From positions 124,001 to 188,000 of the forward strand of contig JAGXFH010000052.1 of the NCBI GenBank assembly GCA_024637315.1: a stretch of 64,000 bases of DNA, given 5' to 3'. Shown piece by piece: positions 53,848 through 63,408 of this stretch. The first letter of the stretch is position 1; every line of letters starts with the position of its first letter. The notes beneath the pieces are model-generated. The model was given only the letters and a program-made list of their open reading frames with translations, was not told the DNA's origin and made no database searches. This stretch comes from Brevirhabdus sp. (GTDB taxonomy: Bacteria > Pseudomonadota > Alphaproteobacteria > Rhodobacterales > Rhodobacteraceae). A program made the translations under genes and the position numbers.

Positions 53848-53993
53848 GCGGGCTTCATCGCCGCACCCGGCCCGGCTTGACAGAGCGCAATGACGGGGCG
53901 GTGGCGAAGGTGCTCATGTTGTAACCGATTCGCCACTGGCTTGGGCTGGTCCCCGGTTTCGGCTTGGCGTCGATATCGATGGGGGATGGGCAG

Positions 53994-54749
53994 ATGATCA
54001 GTTATGGTTCCGCCGGTATGAACGGCGGCGGTGGGAGAGTACGAAAAGCCAGTGGATTGACGCTGGCCCAGCGCATGTTGCTGGAGCTTCGCCCCCAGAT
54101 CACCGAACAGCGCGCGAACCGCAGCAGCGTCATCGCGCATGAGGGCGACCACGTCAGCCACTTCCTGCTGCTGCTCGATGGCTGGATCGGCCTGTCAAAG
54201 GCGCTTTATGACGGGCAGACGCAATTCGTCGACCTCTTGCTGCCCGGCGATGCCATCCTGATGTCCTCAAGCGGCGCGTCGGCGGCGCCCTTCAGTGCCG
54301 AGGCGCTGAGCGACGTGCGCTACATCGCCTTCGGCGAGGAAATGATCAACGGACCCGAGCCCGCGGCGGCCAGGCTGCGCAGTCATCTGGTCTCGTCCGT
54401 GGCGATCCGTCAGGCCCGGATGAGCGAGTCGCTGTTGCGGATCGGTCAGGGCAGCGCCGAAATGCGGATTTCCTTTGCCCTGCTGGAGCTTTTCGTGCGC
54501 CTTGAAGCCGTCGGCAGGACCGACGGGCAGAAGTTCCATCTGCCGATGAACCAGCGGCAACTGGGGCAGTTTACCGGGCTGTCGAATGTTCACGTCTGCC
54601 GCACATTGCGCCGCTTCGAGCGCAACCGGGTGATCACCAGCGCCGACCATATCGATATCGAGATCGTCGATATCGGGGCGCTCTGCGATATGGCGGACAT
54701 CGATCTGGACGCCTTGCGGGCCGAGATCGTGCCGACGCTGCCGGACTGA
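53994..54749 (+). CDS. Crp/Fnr family transcriptional regulator
   Basis: About 251 residues: a glycine-rich start, a cyclic-nucleotide-like domain (FLLLLDGWIGLSKAL, FVDLLLPGDAIL) and a C-terminal helix-turn-helix (NQRQLGQFTGLSNVHVCRTLRRFE). The recognition helix reads S-N-V-H-V-C-R where FNR has T-V-E-T-I-S-R, so it should not recognise the FNR boxes farther on. No N-terminal cysteine set for an Fe-S cluster is present. GGGGGA before ATG 53994 decides the start; ATG 53979 is an alternative. Confidence 0.87.
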   Translation: MISYGSAGMNGGGGRVRKASGLTLAQRMLLELRPQITEQRANRSSVIAHEGDHVSHFLLLLDGWIGLSKALYDGQTQFVDLLLPGDAILMSSSGASAAPFSAEALSDVRYIAFGEEMINGPEPAAARLRSHLVSSVAIRQARMSESLLRIGQGSAEMRISFALLELFVRLEAVGRTDGQKFHLPMNQRQLGQFTGLSNVHVCRTLRRFERNRVITSADHIDIEIVDIGALCDMADIDLDALRAEIVPTLPD

Positions 54750-55388: not shown

Positions 55389-57233
55389 CTATTTTTGCAG
55401 GACGTAGCCGCCCGGTGCGGCGCAGAGCGGCGGATAGGCCGAATTGCCCATCGGCGGCGGCGCGACCGGGTCGCCGCTGCGGCTGTCCAGCCAGCCGCCC
55501 CATTCAGGCCACCACGAGCCCTCTTCCAGCGCTGCCCGCTCGAGCCATGTGTCGGGGTCGGCATAGGTTTCGCCGTGGCGGGTTTGCCTGATGCGGTAGT
55601 GGCGGCGCGGGTGGCCGGGTTCGGATACGATGCCGGCATTGTGGCCGCCGCTGGTCAGAACGAACGTCACATCGCAATCCGTCAGGATGTGCACCTTGTA
55701 GGCGGACCGCCAGGGCGCCACATGATCGGTTTCGGTGCCGACGGCAAAAATCGGCGCGTCGATGTCGGTCAGGGCGACCGGGCGGTTGCCCGCCTCGAAC
55801 TTGCCGGTGGCCAACTGGTTTTCCAGGAACAGCTTGCGCAGGTATTCCGAATGCATCCTGTAGGGCATGCGGGTGGCGTCGGCATTCCAGGCCATCAGGT
55901 CGATCATCGGCGCCCGGTCGCCCATCAGGTAATCGTGCAGGATCTTCGACCAGATCAGGTCGTTCGAGCGCAGGATCCGGAATGCCCCCGCCATCTGCGC
56001 CGAGTCGAGGTAGCCCTTGGCCCACATCATGTCCTCGAGAAAGGCGACCTCGCTTTCATTGATGAACAGCAGCAGTTCGCCGGCCTCGGTAAAGTCCGCC
56101 TGTGCCGCCAGAAGCGAGATCGAGGCGATCCGGTCATCGCCGTCGCGGGCCATCGCGGCGGCGGCGATCTGCAGCAGGGTGCCGCCAAGGCAGTAGCCCG
56201 TCGCATGGATCCGGTCCGACCCGGTGATCGACTGGACCGCGTCCAGCGCCTGCATCACGCCGAGTTTGCGATATTCTTCCATTCCCATGTCGCGATCGCT
56301 GCTGTCGGGATTTCTCCATGACACCATGAACACGGTGTAACCCTGCGCGGTCAGCCAGCGCACCAGCGAATTCTGCGCGCTGAGGTCGAGAATATAGTAT
56401 TTCATGATCCAGGCGGGGACGATCAGGATCGGTTCCGGGCGGACCTTGTCGGTGGTCGGCGCGTACTGGATCAGCTCCATCAGGCGGTTGCGATGGACCA
56501 CCTGTCCTTCGGCGGTGGCGACATTATCGCCCACCCGGAACGCCTCGGTCCCCGCGGGCGGACGATTGGCCACCAGCCGCTGCCAGTCGTCGATGAAGGT
56601 CTGGAACCCGCGCACCAGATTGGCGCCGCCTTCGCTCACGGTGCGCTCGGCCAGTTCGGGATTGGTCGCGAGGTGGTTCGATGGCGCGAAGACATCCAGA
56701 TATTGCCGGGCGGCGAACGAGACCGCGTGTTCATGCTGCGGGGTGACGCCGCTGATGCCCGTGGTCGCATTGTGCCACCATTGCTGGGTCAGCAGGAAGT
56801 TCTGGTAGATCAGGTTGTAGGGCGGCTTTTGCCAGGCGTCGCCGCGAAACCTCTTGTCCTGAACCAGCGGCTCGATGCAGGGTTCCGGCGATCCGTCCTG
56901 CGTGAGGGCGCAGCGCATCGCATATTGCCAAAGCCGCGATTGCTTGCGCCAGGCCTTTTCCAGCAGATGCATCTGCTTGCCCGGAGAGACGGCGAGGTGC
57001 GCCGCCCAGTCAGCCCAGGCCACCGCAAGCGCGGCCGGGGACAGACCGAAACTCAGGCGCGCCATCGCCGCATGCGCCGTCCGGTCGACCAGTTCGGCAA
57101 GCTGGCCGGCGGCGTCGGCATCGAAATCATCGTAGGCCGCTGCCGGCGGCGCTGCCGGTTTTTCGACCGGACGCAGAGGCGTCACGGTGTCGGGTTTCTT
57201 GGCGGTGCCGGTTTTCGATTTGCGGGCCATCAT
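55389..57233 (-). CDS. phaC: Class I poly(3-hydroxyalkanoate) synthase
   Basis: 614 residues. The PhaC N-terminal domain spans about 85-260 (WWHNATTGISGVTPQHEHAVSF), then PAWIMKYYILDLSAQNSLVRWL and the lipase-like box GYCLGG with nucleophile Cys348; a late histidine lies in TSGGHNAGIVSEPGHP. It polymerises hydroxyacyl-CoA into storage granules. It is the third gene of an operon after the SQR-like and DUF5368 genes, not in a phaZ/phaP/phaR cluster, so it is probably a second-type PhaC. A second ATG directly follows the first. Confidence 0.93.
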   Translation of the reverse strand: MMARKSKTGTAKKPDTVTPLRPVEKPAAPPAAAYDDFDADAAGQLAELVDRTAHAAMARLSFGLSPAALAVAWADWAAHLAVSPGKQMHLLEKAWRKQSRLWQYAMRCALTQDGSPEPCIEPLVQDKRFRGDAWQKPPYNLIYQNFLLTQQWWHNATTGISGVTPQHEHAVSFAARQYLDVFAPSNHLATNPELAERTVSEGGANLVRGFQTFIDDWQRLVANRPPAGTEAFRVGDNVATAEGQVVHRNRLMELIQYAPTTDKVRPEPILIVPAWIMKYYILDLSAQNSLVRWLTAQGYTVFMVSWRNPDSSDRDMGMEEYRKLGVMQALDAVQSITGSDRIHATGYCLGGTLLQIAAAAMARDGDDRIASISLLAAQADFTEAGELLLFINESEVAFLEDMMWAKGYLDSAQMAGAFRILRSNDLIWSKILHDYLMGDRAPMIDLMAWNADATRMPYRMHSEYLRKLFLENQLATGKFEAGNRPVALTDIDAPIFAVGTETDHVAPWRSAYKVHILTDCDVTFVLTSGGHNAGIVSEPGHPRRHYRIRQTRHGETYADPDTWLERAALEEGSWWPEWGGWLDSRSGDPVAPPPMGNSAYPPLCAAPGGYVLQK

Positions 57234-57245
57234 TCCCTCTGGTGA

Positions 57246-57623
57246 CTATCGTTTCAGCTGTGGGCCGCCACGGGGCGGTTGTTTGCCGGTGATCAGCGAC
57301 TGAACGGTATAGACCAGAATAGCCATTCCCACGGCGCCCGCCAGTGCTACGGCCAGAAGAACGATCACGTCGATCGGCCCGCCCATGTCGCCTAGCCCCG
57401 AATCGGTCACCGCCAGCACGAACAGAATCGCGGCCACCGCCCCGACCGGCATCGAGATCTGCGCCAGAAGAAACTTGTGCCAGCTGACCGCGCGGTCGCG
57501 GATCAGCACCCAGAGATAGGCGATCGTGATCAGGGCCGCGGCCGCCACCATCGCCCAGAAGAGCGTGCGGCCGAAGATTTCCTCGAATACGGCGATGAGG
57601 GTGCCGAAGGTCAGGTCTTTCAT
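57246..57623 (-). CDS. DUF5368 membrane protein
   Basis: 125 residues with three or four hydrophobic segments (about 22-42, 56-72 and 85-108). The start FGTLIAVFEEIFGRTLFWAM matches the DUF5368 family as I recall it. Function unknown. It lies 12 bases after the SQR-like gene and 12 bases before phaC, so it is certainly co-transcribed with them. Confidence 0.8.
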   Translation of the reverse strand: MKDLTFGTLIAVFEEIFGRTLFWAMVAAAALITIAYLWVLIRDRAVSWHKFLLAQISMPVGAVAAILFVLAVTDSGLGDMGGPIDVIVLLAVALAGAVGMAILVYTVQSLITGKQPPRGGPQLKR

Positions 57624-57635
57624 CTCTTGGTCTCC

Positions 57636-58940
57636 TCAGGCCCGGCCGCGCAGCATGGCGTTGTAGGTCGCCTTGAGCGCGACTTCCTTCATCAGCCAGC
57701 TTATCCACAACTCCTCCAGCGGGGCGATGATGCCGGGGAAGGACGGGGTCAGGTCATTGTTGTAGTCGAATTCGATCAGCATGGCGCGGCCGATGCGGGT
57801 GATCAGCGGGCAGGACGTGTAGCCGGTGTAGACCTCGGTTCCCGCGCGGCCCTCGATGGCGGCGACCAGGTGATCCTCGACCACCGGCACCTGCCACTTG
57901 ACGCTGGCGGCGGTCTTGCCCTTGGGCACGCCCGCCACGTCGCCCAGGGCGAAAATGTCGGGGTAGCGGCGGTGCCGCAGGGTCTGCTGGTCGACCTCTG
58001 CCCAGCCCTGATCGGTCCACTTGTCGGCCCAGCTGAGACCGGACTGGCGGACGAATTCCGGGGCCCGCTGCGGCGGGATCACATGGAGATAGTCGTATTC
58101 GATCTGCCGGTCCCCGGTCGGTGTCGCGAAGGTCGCGCGTTTCGCGTCGGCGTCGACTGCCTTCAGGACGTGGCTGTAGACCGGCGTGATGCCGCGATCG
58201 CCAAACAGCATCCGCACCTTTTCGGACACGATCGGCACGCCGAACAGGCTGTCGTTGTTCGATGCGTAGATCATGTTCATGCGGCCGACATTTCCGGCCC
58301 GGCGGGCGATGTCGTCGATCAGAAACGTGTGTTTCAGCGGCGCGCCGGCGCATTTCATCTCGGTCGCCGGGCGGGTGAAAAGGCCGGTCCCGCCGGTTTC
58401 GACGAATTGCGCCGCCGCCTGCCAGGTCTTTGCCGCATGGTCCGGACCGGCATAGAGCGCGCCGATGCCCTTCTGCCCGACAAGATCGAGCGAGAAGCCT
58501 TCGATCGCATCGTGATCCAGCACCAGCCCCGGCGCGATGATCAGGAAATCGTAGGCGAAGGTCTGTCCGCCGGTGGTCGAAACGGTCCTGCTTTCGGGAT
58601 CGACGGCCGCCGCGTCCTCGGCGACCAGGCTGACACCGGCCGGCAGCCACTCGGCGGTTTGGGTCAGCACGTAATCGGCGGGCTTGAGGCCGGTTGCGAC
58701 CAGCGACAGGCCGGGCTGGTAGATGTGGTTCTGGCGCCGGTCGAGGATGGTGATCTGCGCCCCGTCAATCCGACGCACGAGGCGATTGGCGATTGCCGTG
58801 CCCGCCGCGCCGGCGCCGATGATGACGATCCTGGCCCTGCTGCTGACAACGGTCTGTGCCTGACCGGAGCGGGGAAGAATGCTTGCCCCGATACCGCCCG
58901 CCGCGGCCATCGCAAGGAGTTGTCTTCGATTGATGTTCAT
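57636..58940 (-). CDS. Sulfide:quinone oxidoreductase-like FAD protein with Tat signal
   Basis: 434 residues. A Tat signal (NRRQLLAMAAAGGIGAS) precedes the FAD loop IVIIGAGAAGTAIANRL; further SQR/FCSD features are NHIYQPGLSLVATGL, the Cys197 region EMKCAGAPLKHTFL, FALGDVAGVPKGKTAASV and Cys377 in GYTSCPLITRIG. Only two of the three cysteines of classical SQRs are seen. It may oxidise sulfide, or a related sulfur species, at the periplasmic face. It heads the operon with DUF5368 and phaC. Confidence 0.85.
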   Translation of the reverse strand: MNINRRQLLAMAAAGGIGASILPRSGQAQTVVSSRARIVIIGAGAAGTAIANRLVRRIDGAQITILDRRQNHIYQPGLSLVATGLKPADYVLTQTAEWLPAGVSLVAEDAAAVDPESRTVSTTGGQTFAYDFLIIAPGLVLDHDAIEGFSLDLVGQKGIGALYAGPDHAAKTWQAAAQFVETGGTGLFTRPATEMKCAGAPLKHTFLIDDIARRAGNVGRMNMIYASNNDSLFGVPIVSEKVRMLFGDRGITPVYSHVLKAVDADAKRATFATPTGDRQIEYDYLHVIPPQRAPEFVRQSGLSWADKWTDQGWAEVDQQTLRHRRYPDIFALGDVAGVPKGKTAASVKWQVPVVEDHLVAAIEGRAGTEVYTGYTSCPLITRIGRAMLIEFDYNNDLTPSFPGIIAPLEELWISWLMKEVALKATYNAMLRGRA

Positions 58941-59114: not shown

Positions 59115-59128
59115 GTTTGATTTCAGTC
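59115..59128 (+). promoter_or_regulatory. FNR/FixK-type box upstream of the acyl-CoA ligase/GNAT gene
   Basis: TTGAT-TTCA-GTCAA matches the FNR/FixK consensus TTGAY-N4-RTCAA at every defined position. It is 122 bases before the ligase/GNAT ATG in the 310-base divergent spacer 58941-59250, which holds no gene. A low-oxygen or redox signal probably acts here. Confidence 0.7.
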
Positions 59129-59250: not shown

Positions 59251-61932
59251 ATGGGGAAAGCGCCGCTCGACCAGCTTTTCAATCCGACCTCCATCGCTGT
59301 TTTCGGGGCCAGTGCGTCTGGCGGCGGCGTTGGGTCGCGGGTGTTCGCCAATCTGCTGAAGGGCGGTTTCGAGGGGCCGATCATTCCGATCAACCCCAGG
59401 CACCGGACGGTCAGTGGCAAGACCTGCTACGCGTCGATCGAGGATGTGGAGCAGGAGATCGACCTTGCGGTGATCGCGACGCCCGCGGCGACGGTGCCCG
59501 AGATCATCCGGCAATGCGGCGAGGCCGGGACCCGGCATGCGATCGTCCTGTCCGCCGGTTTCGGAGAGGCGGGCGCCGATGGAAAGGCCTTGGGCGAAGA
59601 GCTGCTGGAAGACGCGCGGCGCTACGACGTCCGGCTGCTCGGTCCGAACTGCGTCGGGCTGGTGCGGCCCTGGCTGGGGATGAACGCCACGTTCCTGAAG
59701 TCCGATACGCCAAAGGGACGACTGGCGCTGATCTCGCAGTCCGGCGCGCTCTGTTCGGCGATCTCGGACTGGGCCGGTCCGAACCATCTTGGCTTCTCGG
59801 CGATCGTGTCACTTGGCAATTCCGCCGATCTCGGGTTCGGCGACATCATCGAGTTTCTGGCGAGCGATCCCAAGACCGACGCGATCCTGCTTTACGTCGA
59901 AGGCGTCAATTCGGCGCGGTCGTTCATCAGCGCGCTGCGGGCCGCGTCGCGGATCAAGCCGGTGATCGTGCTGAAATCCGGACGCCATGCCAAAAGCTCT
60001 GAAGCCGCCCGCACCCATACCGGCGCGCTGCTTGGATCGGACGCGGTGTTCGACGCGGCGCTGGAACGCGGTGGCGCGGTGCGCGCCCAGACGTTCGGAC
60101 AGCTGTTCGCCGCGGCCGAGATGCTTTCGACGAACCGGCGCAGCAAGGGCAAACGGCTGGGGATCATCACCAATGGCGGCGGCGCGGGGGTTCTGGCGGC
60201 CGACCGCGCAGGCGATCTGGACATCGACCTTGCCGCGCCGTCGGAAAAGACGACCAGGGCGCTGGACAAGGTGCTTTCGCCGTACTGGTCGAAGGCCAAC
60301 CCGATCGATATCCTCGGCGATGCCACGCCCGACCAGTACCGCGCCGCGGTGTCGGCCTGCCTGGCGGACGAGAATTTCGACGGCGTTCTGGTGATGCTGA
60401 CGCCGCAGGCGATGACCGAGGCGACGGACGCGGCGAAGGCGGTGATAGAAGCCGGCGCGAAAGAGGCGCGAAAGCCGGTGCTGGCATGCTGGATGGGCGA
60501 AAGCTCGGTCGCGCGGGCCCGCGAGCTGCTCAGCGGCGAAGGCATTCCGGACTTCACCACCCCGGAACGCGCGGTCGAGGCGTTTTCCTATCTTGCCCAG
60601 CACCACCGCAACCGCCGGCTGGCACTGGAGACGCCCGGACCGCTGTCCGAGTTCGAGCCGCCGGATGTGGACGGTGCGCGGATGATCATCGATGCGGCCC
60701 TGGCCGACGGGCGCAGCATGTTGTCGGACATCGAATCGAAAGCGGTTATGCGCAGTTTCCGGATACCGATGAACATGGCGCTGGAGGCTGACAGCGCGGC
60801 AAAGGCCCTTGTCGCGGCGGAAACCGTCGGGTTCCCGGTCGCGATGAAGATCAACTCTCCGCAGATCACCCACAAATCCGATGTCGGCGGCGTGCGCATC
60901 GACATCATGAATGCCGCCGACGCGAAACTGGCCTACCGCGATATCGTCGAGTCCGCCAAGGCGGCCCGCCCCGAGGCCACGATCGCGGGCGTGACGGTCG
61001 AGCGGATGGCAGACGTGCGCGATGCCCGCGAATTGCTGGTCGGGGTGAGCCGCGATCCGGTCTTCGGACCCAGCATCGTTTTCGGCGCCGGCGGCACGAT
61101 GGTCGAGATCCTGCGCGACAGTTCGGTGTCGCTGCCGCCGCTGAATGCGGTTCTGGCCGGCCGGCTGATCAACCGGACCCGCGTGTCGCATCTGCTGGAG
61201 GCGTTCCGCGACCGCGCCGCCGTTGACCGCGAGGCGGTGATCGGTGTGCTCTTGCGGGTTTCGGACCTGGTCTGCGCATTGCCGGCGGTGCAGGAGCTGG
61301 ATATCAACCCGCTGCTGGCCGGGCCGGATGGCGTGATGGCGGTCGATGCCCGGATCCGCGTGGCCCGCCCGGATGCCCGACGCGGCCCGCATGATCACAT
61401 GGCGATCGCCCCCTATCCCCGGCACCTCGAACAGCGGGGCCACCTGTCGGACGGCACGCCGCTGACGATCCGGCCGATCCGCGCGGAAGATGCCGAAAGC
61501 GAACAGGCCTTCGTGCGCGATCTGTCGCCCGAGGCGAAGAAATTCCGCTTCATGGGGGCGATCAACGAATTGTCGCCCGAGATGCTGGCCCGGTTTACCC
61601 AGATCGACTATGCCCGCGAAATGGCGCTGATCGCGCTGACCGGGGAAAATGGCAAACAGCGGCAGCAGGGGGTTGCGCGGTATTACATCAACCCCGACCA
61701 GAAAAGCTGCGAATTCGCGATCGTGGTTTCGGACAAGTTGCAGGGTCAGGGCATCGGCACCCGGCTGATGAAAGCGCTGATGGACGCCGCCCGCGGTCAC
61801 GGGCTTGCGGTCATCGAGGGCGCCGTCATGGCGAGCAACAAGGAGATGCTTCATCTGATGAAAGATCTTGGATTCTCGGCCCGCCCCTCGCCCGATGACA
61901 AGGATGTCATTCAGGTGGAGCGGCGGCTTTGA
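59251..61932 (+). CDS. ADP-forming acyl-CoA ligase-type protein fused to a GNAT domain (Pat-like)
   Basis: 893 residues: a CoA-binding domain (IAVFGASASGGGVGSRVF), succinyl-CoA-ligase-like domains with THTGALLGSD (His256), an ATP-grasp domain with SPQITHKSDVGGVRIDI, and a GNAT domain from about 730 (LTIRPIRAEDAES; LQGQGIGTRLMKALMDA). This is the layout of the protein acetyltransferase Pat/YfiQ, which acetylates lysines of acetyl-CoA synthetase. Both histidines typical of active ADP-forming acyl-CoA synthetases are kept, so ligase activity is possible too. The deacetylase gene follows 31 bases later. Confidence 0.9.
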   Translation: MGKAPLDQLFNPTSIAVFGASASGGGVGSRVFANLLKGGFEGPIIPINPRHRTVSGKTCYASIEDVEQEIDLAVIATPAATVPEIIRQCGEAGTRHAIVLSAGFGEAGADGKALGEELLEDARRYDVRLLGPNCVGLVRPWLGMNATFLKSDTPKGRLALISQSGALCSAISDWAGPNHLGFSAIVSLGNSADLGFGDIIEFLASDPKTDAILLYVEGVNSARSFISALRAASRIKPVIVLKSGRHAKSSEAARTHTGALLGSDAVFDAALERGGAVRAQTFGQLFAAAEMLSTNRRSKGKRLGIITNGGGAGVLAADRAGDLDIDLAAPSEKTTRALDKVLSPYWSKANPIDILGDATPDQYRAAVSACLADENFDGVLVMLTPQAMTEATDAAKAVIEAGAKEARKPVLACWMGESSVARARELLSGEGIPDFTTPERAVEAFSYLAQHHRNRRLALETPGPLSEFEPPDVDGARMIIDAALADGRSMLSDIESKAVMRSFRIPMNMALEADSAAKALVAAETVGFPVAMKINSPQITHKSDVGGVRIDIMNAADAKLAYRDIVESAKAARPEATIAGVTVERMADVRDARELLVGVSRDPVFGPSIVFGAGGTMVEILRDSSVSLPPLNAVLAGRLINRTRVSHLLEAFRDRAAVDREAVIGVLLRVSDLVCALPAVQELDINPLLAGPDGVMAVDARIRVARPDARRGPHDHMAIAPYPRHLEQRGHLSDGTPLTIRPIRAEDAESEQAFVRDLSPEAKKFRFMGAINELSPEMLARFTQIDYAREMALIALTGENGKQRQQGVARYYINPDQKSCEFAIVVSDKLQGQGIGTRLMKALMDAARGHGLAVIEGAVMASNKEMLHLMKDLGFSARPSPDDKDVIQVERRL

Positions 61933-61963
61933 GCGGCGCCCGGCTTGCGGATCGGAGGCCGAC

Positions 61964-62881
61964 ATGCTTGCGATGATCTCTCATCCCGACTGCCTCGACC
62001 ATGATCCTGGTCCCTGGCATCCCGATACCGCGGCGCGGCTGAATGCGATCAACGATCAAGTCATCCGCTCGGGTCTGGAATTCGTGATCCGGCACTATGA
62101 TGCGCCGCTGGCGACGCGGGCGCAGCTGGAACGGGTGCATGATCCGGCCTATGTCCAGCGGGTGTTCGACATGGCGCCTGCCGAGGGTTCGGTAGAGATC
62201 GACGGCGACACGGTGATGTCGGCGGGAACGCTGAACGCGGCGTTGCGTGCGGCCGGGGCGGGGGTCATGGGCGTCGACCTGATCATGAAGCAGGAAGCCT
62301 GCCCGGTCTTTTGCGCGATCCGTCCGCCCGGACATCATGCCGAGCACGACAAGGCGATGGGTTTCTGCCTGTTCGACAATATCGCCGTGGCCGCCGCTCA
62401 TGCGCTGCAGGAACACGGCCTGAGCCGGGTCGCCATCGTCGATTTCGACGTGCATCATGGCAATGGAACCGAGGACATCTTTCGGAACGAACCGCGGGTT
62501 CTGTTCTGTTCCAGTTTTCAGCACCCGTTCTATCCGTTCACCGGGCACGAGGCGAGGACCGCCAACCTGATCGGCGTGCCACTGGCCGCCGATACCGGCA
62601 GCGCCGCCTACCGCAAGGCTGTCGCCGAGCACTGGTTCCCGGCGCTGGAGGCGTTTCAACCGGAATTCCTGTTCATCTCTGCGGGGTTCGACGCGCATGT
62701 CCTTGACGACATGTCGAACCTCAACCTGACCGAGGCCGATTTTGCCTGGCTGACCAGCGAATTGATGGCGATCGCCAGGACCCATTGCCAGGGCCGGATC
62801 CTGTCGATGCTGGAAGGCGGCTATGATCCGGGCGCGCTTGCGCGCAGCGTGGTCAGCCATCTGAAGGCGCTGCTGGACTGA
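61964..62881 (+). CDS. Class II histone-deacetylase-like hydrolase
   Basis: 305 residues of the HDAC/AcuC/acetylpolyamine amidohydrolase family. The catalytic pair His124-His125 is in RPPGHHAEHDKAMGFCLF; zinc ligands are Asp162 and His164 in DFDVHHGNG and Asp243 in SAGFDAH; the glycine loop is MLEGGYD. It removes acetyl groups from lysine or polyamines. Following the GNAT-fusion gene by 31 bases, it is the natural eraser for that enzyme. CGGAGG precedes ATG 61964. Confidence 0.92.
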   Translation: MLAMISHPDCLDHDPGPWHPDTAARLNAINDQVIRSGLEFVIRHYDAPLATRAQLERVHDPAYVQRVFDMAPAEGSVEIDGDTVMSAGTLNAALRAAGAGVMGVDLIMKQEACPVFCAIRPPGHHAEHDKAMGFCLFDNIAVAAAHALQEHGLSRVAIVDFDVHHGNGTEDIFRNEPRVLFCSSFQHPFYPFTGHEARTANLIGVPLAADTGSAAYRKAVAEHWFPALEAFQPEFLFISAGFDAHVLDDMSNLNLTEADFAWLTSELMAIARTHCQGRILSMLEGGYDPGALARSVVSHLKALLD

Positions 62882-62939: not shown

Positions 62940-63317
62940 CTACTTTCGCTGGCGGTAGGCGAGAATGCGCAGCAGGGCCGCCAGCAGCGTATTGGACAGA
63001 TCAGGACCCTTGGCGTGGCCGATGAATTCATCCTCGTCGCGCGCCTCGTTGGACCGCAGGCTGCACCGCCAGTGACCGTTGGGTTCGAACGCGCGGCCCT
63101 TCAGGCGGATCGACCAGCCGGGGGCGGCCTCGTCGACCAGGTGAATGACCGCGTCAGTCGATAGCAGGTCGGAGGCCCGCACGGTTTCCTGCTTGCCGGC
63201 ATCGCGCAGGAACGTGCCGATCACGACGACCGCGGTATCGGCGAGATCCTGATCGAGCGTTGTCGCCGCTTCGATCTTGTCGGCCAGTTCTTCCAGCTGA
63301 TGCGATGTCATACCCAT
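62940..63317 (-). CDS. Conserved protein of unknown function, divergent from ppsA
   Basis: About 125 residues, no signal or membrane segment. Visible stretches are HQLEELADKIEAATTLDQDL (helical), VVVIGTFLRDAG and the beta-rich WSIRLKGRAFEPNGHWRCSLR, ending in NTLLAALLRILAYRQRK. I do not recognise the family. AAAGGA lies seven bases before ATG 63317; ATGs at 63323 and 63311 are alternatives. It shares the FNR-box spacer with ppsA. Confidence 0.6.
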   Translation of the reverse strand: MGMTSHQLEELADKIEAATTLDQDLADTAVVVIGTFLRDAGKQETVRASDLLSTDAVIHLVDEAAPGWSIRLKGRAFEPNGHWRCSLRSNEARDEDEFIGHAKGPDLSNTLLAALLRILAYRQRK

Positions 63318-63394
63318 TTCCATATCCTTTCGGCACCATGGTCCCGTTGCCGACCTTGCCAATGACTGGATAGTGGGCGCGGCGGCGCCGGTCA

Positions 63395-63408
63395 TTGATG
63401 CAGATCAA
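63395..63408. promoter_or_regulatory. FNR-type box between the unknown gene and ppsA
   Basis: TTGAT-GCAG-ATCAA is a perfect FNR consensus palindrome. It ends 58 bases before the ppsA ATG, a suitable position for activation, and 78 bases from the divergent gene. Confidence 0.75.

Follow-up and report, generated by a model that had tools for sequence, protein, structure and literature searches.

In a 64,000-nucleotide stretch of the genome of Brevirhabdus sp. (contig JAGXFH010000052.1, positions 124,001 to 188,000; hereafter the window), the gene for a protein that joins a part like the ADP-forming acyl-CoA synthetases (ACDs) to a GNAT acyltransferase domain (P0001) stands directly ahead of a gene for a zinc-dependent deacetylase of the HDAC family (P0002; Table 1). 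It is our reading, held with moderate confidence and drawn from sequence, that the pair forms a reversible lysine-acylation module, probably controlled by low oxygen, in which the writer is probably still active as a ligase. Protein lysines would receive an acyl group, most likely acetyl, from acyl-CoA through the GNAT half of P0001 and lose it again through P0002, and the N-terminal half would keep the ACD phosphorelay where E. coli PatZ has a dead sensor. Such a relay would run from ATP to H541, then to H256 on a swinging loop and on to the acyl group and CoA; if it is retained, P0001 probably still interconverts an acid and its acyl-CoA.

The prevailing view of Pat enzymes makes their synthetase half a dead sensor. 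Our results suggest that this view fits the branch that resembles the E. coli enzyme and that, among the relatives, many may still be working ligases. In that case a single protein would produce or break down acyl-CoA and, by using it, regulate further enzymes that make acyl-CoA, its eraser being encoded next door. Bacteria such as Roseovarius, Maritimibacter and Aliiroseovarius would have in this pair a defined writer-eraser couple. An original prediction for this DNA had described the fusion, the HDAC gene 31 bases further on and both histidines, and had suggested that P0001 may make acyl-CoA as well as use it. The open reading frames, the Pfam domains and the exact gap confirm what it observed, and H256 and H541 are both in place; its interpretation is partly supported.

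Ligase-type residues in the fusion protein

Residues were compared across four aligned sets: P0001 with 90 relatives (set A; 91 rows, 82 distinct proteins), 33 other alphaproteobacterial ACD/GNAT fusions (set B), E. coli PatZ with 30 of its nearest relatives from a phylum sample (set C; 31 rows), and 38 stand-alone proteins that are ACD-like by sequence only (set D). Fifty reference columns were taken as the positions at which at least 92% of set D share one residue. H256 (in THTGALLGSD) is kept in 89/91, 33/33, 21/31 and 38/38 rows of sets A to D, respectively; in set C it aligns as histidine in decayed surroundings (T257 in only 14/31). H541 (in ITHKSDVGG) is kept in 90/91, 33/33, 28/31 and 37/38 rows, and L210 is without it owing to a cut reading frame. 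The idea that retention of both histidines is a special trait of P0001 is ruled out, as it is the rule in the clade (89 and 90 of 91) and in the other alphaproteobacterial fusions (33/33 keep both). The expected contrast with Pat proteins holds for one position only: H256 is missing in E. coli PatZ, whereas the ATP-grasp histidine persists in 28/31 PatZ relatives, so that only one of the two histidines separates P0001 from PatZ.

A better argument for the predicted ligase function is the whole residue set E619, R653, N686, G598, G310 and G311, which is nearly always retained in the P0001 clade and lost or decayed in the PatZ relatives. In the order of the four sets, E619 is kept in 89/91, 33/33, 0/31 and 37/38 rows, R653 in 89/91, 33/33, 2/31 and 37/38, and N686 in 91/91, 33/33, 7/31 and 37/38, while G598 is found in 0/31 rows of set C. 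P0001 keeps 47 of the 50 reference columns and E. coli PatZ 38; the mean share kept is 0.93 in set A, 0.96 in set B and 0.79 in set C. The 12 columns that E. coli PatZ misses include H256, T257, G310, G311, G598, E619, D623, R653 and N686; H256 and its linked residues are gone, and the second histidine is retained. Judged from the alignment, E. coli PatZ is thus a derived exception among the fusions.

P0001 has the features of an ACD, namely the phosphohistidine position of the swinging loop (H256, by alignment) and the second histidine with intact ATP-grasp residues (H541, E619, D623, R653, D684 and N686), and its ATP-grasp part finds its best PDB sequence matches in archaeal ACD subunits, with PatZ behind them. 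Loss of the catalytic histidine, by which type I Pats are assigned a dead synthetase in the available text of PMC8556138, is not seen in the aligned P0001, which retains H256 and the residues linked to it. The structure model (predicted local distance difference test 88.0, predicted TM score 0.84) aligns with the ADP-forming Nmar_0206 (8wzu) at a TM score of 0.92 by target, and the domain order, the swinging-loop histidine (H256 in both) and the ATP-grasp histidine (H535 in Nmar_0206) are alike. ATP-grasp motifs are common to P0001 and the ACDs Nmar_0206, Korarchaeum ACD1 (4xyl) and DddX (7cm9); P0001 differs from these in its fused C-terminal GNAT domain and in that its ligase function is predicted only. 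According to the accessible portion of PMC11494057, phosphate in Nmar_0206 passes to H535 first and then to H256 on the swinging loop, and the H292A change abolishes the activity of DddX, a member of the same superfamily (excerpt of PMC8163506).

The domain order of P0001 (ACD subdomains 1-2-5-4-3, then GNAT) is also that of PatZ (YfiQ/Pka) and Salmonella Pat, and its model aligns with PatZ (9it0) over 898 columns (TM score 0.89 by query, 36% identity); PatZ lacks H256, E619, R653 and N686, all of which P0001 has. The fusion tree (quick search, LG+G4, 73 of 193 rows; the five outgroup rows do not form one side of a branch, L010 lying inside) places set A on one branch (98*; 39 rows) and sets B and C, together with a single row that has no GNAT domain, on the other (100*; 30 rows), set C being nested within set B (100* for C). 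Because the two branches are separate, P0001 appears from the tree to belong to a clade that is sister to the PatZ family and not to be a PatZ ortholog. In set A, rows from gamma- and betaproteobacteria fall outside those from alphaproteobacteria, with origin by name uncertain for some metagenome-assembled genomes that carry odd names (Acidimicrobiales, Nitrosomonas). The domain make-up itself was already known, since NCBI-style annotation names such proteins, as for a homologue on a Mesorhizobium plasmid (bifunctional acetate--CoA ligase family protein/GNAT family N-acetyltransferase).

Association with the deacetylase gene

The pairing and the upstream boxes were counted in 80 named loci, the best 80 of 133 relatives obtained by a profile search of genome contigs; they were retrieved by similarity to P0001 alone and not to the HDAC. 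A contig search with the single P0001 sequence gave 45 pattern matches, none confirmed, and the alignment-based search gave the 133. Since an HDAC gene adjoins the fusion gene in 60 of these 80 loci, their adjacency exceeds chance. Three arrangements occur among the 60: 54 tandem (gap 2-169, median 25), 5 divergent and 1 convergent. A further six of the 80 loci have short flanks. When the family sample and the 80 loci are joined, the side-by-side writer and eraser that had been proposed recur in 61 of 82 distinct clade proteins, and the HDAC motifs are complete in 58 of the 61 linked rows. In the 295-genome family sample, 8 of 10 orthologs have an HDAC directly downstream (66-76% identical to P0002), and each of the 10 listed HDACs that share at least 60% identity with P0002 adjoins a fusion gene (for one, L221, the contig ends inside that gene). 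Among the controls, an HDAC gene lies within 1.5 kb in 0/33 set B loci, and none was found in 20 of these with widened flanks; among the PatZ relatives of set C, 1/30 loci has one within the fetched flanks (1.5 kb). In this locus, L270, the HDAC gene is convergent and its product 52.6% identical to P0002, possibly an independent pairing.

P0002 matches PF00850 (E 1.3e-85) and has the features of a class II-type HDAC, with motifs that correspond to the zinc ligands, the histidine pair and the catalytic tyrosine. Roles of these motifs are given in the available part of PMC8556138. Its best PDB match is Burkholderia 5ji5 (E 4.8e-103), and a 5ji5-like HDAC, AZC_0414 of Azorhizobium, lowers protein acetylation in vivo, with no link to an ACD/GNAT fusion mentioned in the text at hand of that report (PMC9927263). 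In the HDAC tree, 42 fusion-linked rows group with 4 unlinked ones in a single starred set (97*). The common Rhodobacteraceae HDAC, which the window's genome also encodes as a separate copy, falls outside this set; the 4 unlinked HDACs come from gammaproteobacterial genomes that hold the fusion gene. The tree is compatible with the two genes having been inherited or transferred together, the unlinked gammaproteobacterial HDACs being sampled from few genomes only. The first version was built without L131, L144 and L156 (partial) and 8 duplicates, and the thinned version without 19 linked rows and L130, by a quick method with support from the SH-like approximate likelihood-ratio test only and with long-branch warnings.

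The pair is best described as a variant on the known PatZ/CobB and AcuA/AcuC kind of system. In Bacillus an acetyltransferase and a zinc deacetylase are likewise encoded together, as AcuA and AcuC with AcuB (excerpts of PMC8556138 and PMC13121692); unlike P0001, AcuA is a small GNAT protein, and AcuC is grouped with class I. From the AcuABC type of operon, the GNAT writer adjoining a zinc deacetylase is found here, whereas the AcuB gene and a neighbouring acsA are not. A search limited to open-licence papers, and weak for that purpose, found no ligase-active Pat and no assay of dual activity.

The fusion gene is patchy within its own family. Matches to P0001 at E 1e-100 or better were obtained in 23 of the 295 genomes, 11 of which (its own included) have it in full length at about 60% identity or more, and the gene is absent from the one congener examined. 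In the class sample 101 of 385 genomes have a match, in most cases either a full-length one at 36-47% or a shorter ACD-only protein. Among 85 plasmid records none reached 60% identity, so that no plasmid carrier of the P0001 clade was found; in the pSymA record the stretch examined had no annotated features. A set-B-type fusion does lie on a Mesorhizobium plasmid (L303:7986-10664), near genes for universal stress proteins, hemA, a phasin and c-type cytochromes; these surroundings, too, hint at control by low oxygen.

Probable oxygen control and alternative explanations

In 40 of 63 alphaproteobacterial and unassigned loci, the 300 bases ahead of the fusion gene contain a box that matches TTGAT-N4-ATCAA, which we take to be the FNR-type consensus, exactly (6 loci) or with one mismatch; the count is inflated by kinship of the loci, the spacers nevertheless differing between them. 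The boxes mostly stand 66-167 bases before the fusion start; shuffling of the same sequences gives an expectation of 0.17, and the frequency of the box among 300-base stretches of these loci is 2.9%. This suggests that the module is switched by oxygen under a predicted FNR-type control, and the two genes are presumably transcribed together. The window has 3 FNR-type sites (0.30 in shuffles); besides the box at 59117, there is the exact box TTGATGCAGATCAA at 63395-63408, upstream of the phosphoenolpyruvate (PEP) synthase gene. As the regulator acting on the box, the Crp/Fnr-family gene at 53964-54749 was considered and is a doubtful candidate: it scores 54 bits against the nearest family, FnrL (cut-off 300), and has only two cysteines, both in the C-terminal third of the translation, with no N-terminal cysteine cluster.

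Candidate targets of P0001 are two acyl-CoA synthetases of the same genome that carry PKTRSGK, presumably an acetylation-target motif: L120, above the Acs cut-off, and L121, below it. This genome has four HDAC-family genes and no sirtuin; the two synthetases and the lack of a sirtuin speak for the module. A wider scheme, speculative and unlikely as a whole, would have flux and tagging coupled in the single polypeptide. When oxygen is low, the ACD half would run acyl-CoA + ADP + Pi to acid + ATP and so save energy, while its own GNAT half would acylate and shut off the AMP-forming synthetases that would spend ATP on the reversal; the HDAC would reopen them when oxygen returns, the acetate it releases could be reloaded by the ligase half, and the two-gene cassette would have moved between gamma- and alphaproteobacteria.

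Several observations weigh against a ligase-active, oxygen-controlled module. The pairing is patchy: 14 of the 80 loci have no HDAC gene despite at least 1 kb on both sides, and the pairing label takes 11 changes on the fusion tree. The box occurs in 0/14 gamma- and betaproteobacterial loci, 4/33 of set B and 0/30 of set C, and oxygen control is therefore not general. Neither acs-type gene adjoins the module, the Acs-type genes being on other contigs. Sirtuin counts show no pattern of HDAC replacing CobB, and replacement of a missing sirtuin as a rule was rejected (a sirtuin in 8/11 genomes with an ortholog vs 18/29 without), although the window's genome has none. L205 and L206 of set A, moreover, have lost H256 and decayed at other positions (0.76 and 0.78 of the 50 columns kept) yet keep the GNAT part, which suggests that ligase function can be dispensable in the clade. 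These two Thiotrichales-type fusions group together (100*) away from PatZ, so that H256 has been lost at least twice. The retained residues may also reflect ancestry or a phosphorylation-based sensor.

It is accordingly a serious possibility, though one we think less likely than the main reading, that P0001 and P0002 are writer and eraser and the ligase half does no more than sense acyl-CoA (or phosphorylation), as has been proposed for PatZ, with residues that are ancestral or serve sensing. All type I Pats characterised in the available text of PMC8556138 and PMC6456759 are described with a regulatory synthetase domain (the two disagree on the type of the Rhodopseudomonas palustris Pat), L205 and L206 did lose H256, and PatZ still has a fold like that of P0001. 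Nevertheless, the ATP-grasp and swinging-loop set should be superfluous in a pure CoA sensor, and E619, R653, N686 and G598 are near-invariant over 124 fusion rows and decay in the PatZ relatives.

Shared regulation with separate substrates, in which the HDAC would act on small acetylated compounds (e.g., polyamines) and the fusion alone, appears improbable. Bacterial HDAC relatives do include polyamine and amide hydrolases, and HDAC10, HDAH and pesticide-amide hydrolases stand further down among the PDB matches of P0002; the patchy pairing points the same way. However, the nearest solved relative is 5ji5, and the 5ji5-like AZC_0414 lowers protein acetylation; three gene orders with the same partner argue for a shared function, and a convergent HDAC gene accompanies the fusion gene of the PatZ relative L270 as well. 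That the adjacency is mere inheritance of one ancestral gene block is very improbable: sampling is dense among close relatives and the linked HDACs are mutually related, yet gene order varies between lineages, in three arrangements that already weaken the idea, and outer neighbours are not retained (in 11 loci with widened flanks the HDAC cluster is present in 9 and the next neighbour cluster in 5, the latter also in 7 control loci).

Feature positions and genomic surroundings

Pfam assigns CoA_binding_2 (residues 14-138), Succ_CoA_lig (155-292), Ligase_CoA_2 (305-437) and ATP-grasp_5 (483-704) to P0001, with GNAT families within residues 738-878. The gap to P0002 is exactly 31 bases and contains GGAGG.

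Table 1. Positions of the gene pair and its features in the window
Feature	Position	Strand	Basis or remark
FNR/DNR-type box TTGATTTCAGTCAA, 1 mismatch to TTGAT-N4-ATCAA	59117..59130	.	Pattern match; 134 bases upstream of fusion start
ACD/GNAT fusion protein P0001, 893 aa	59251..61932	+	Open reading frame, Pfam; ATG start 59251; predicted lysine acyltransferase with ligase-type N-terminal part
CoA-binding, succinyl-CoA-ligase-like and Ligase-CoA domains, residues 14-437 (ACD subdomains 1-2-5)	59290..60561	+	
Predicted swinging loop, residues 246-266	59986..60048	+	Alignment with S246-I266 of Nmar_0206
Codon of H256, predicted phosphohistidine of swinging loop	60016..60018	+	
ATP-grasp domain, residues 483-704 (ACD subdomains 4-3)	60697..61362	+	
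Codon of H541	60871..60873	+	Aligned with H535 of Nmar_0206, first phosphate acceptor
GNAT domain, about residues 738-887	61462..61911	+	E821 and CoA-binding QGQGIG motif
GGAGG, Shine-Dalgarno-like	61954..61958	+	5 bases before HDAC start
Class II-type zinc-dependent deacetylase P0002, 305 aa	61964..62881	+	GHHA, DFDVHHG, GFD and EGGY motifs

The neighbours of the pair are a type III SQR-like gene, DUF5368, phaC, an unnamed open reading frame and the PEP synthase gene. The first three occupy 55389-58940 on the minus strand, beside the pair. A larger conserved cluster with phaC, SQR or PEP synthase was considered and not found in the fetched flanks of 10 orthologs (up to 8 kb, shorter for L094). 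Between the HDAC and PEP synthase genes, a minus-strand open reading frame of 151 aa (62940-63395) has no Pfam or NCBIfam match. The PEP synthase gene likely starts at ATG 63461 or 63467, not at TTG 63395.

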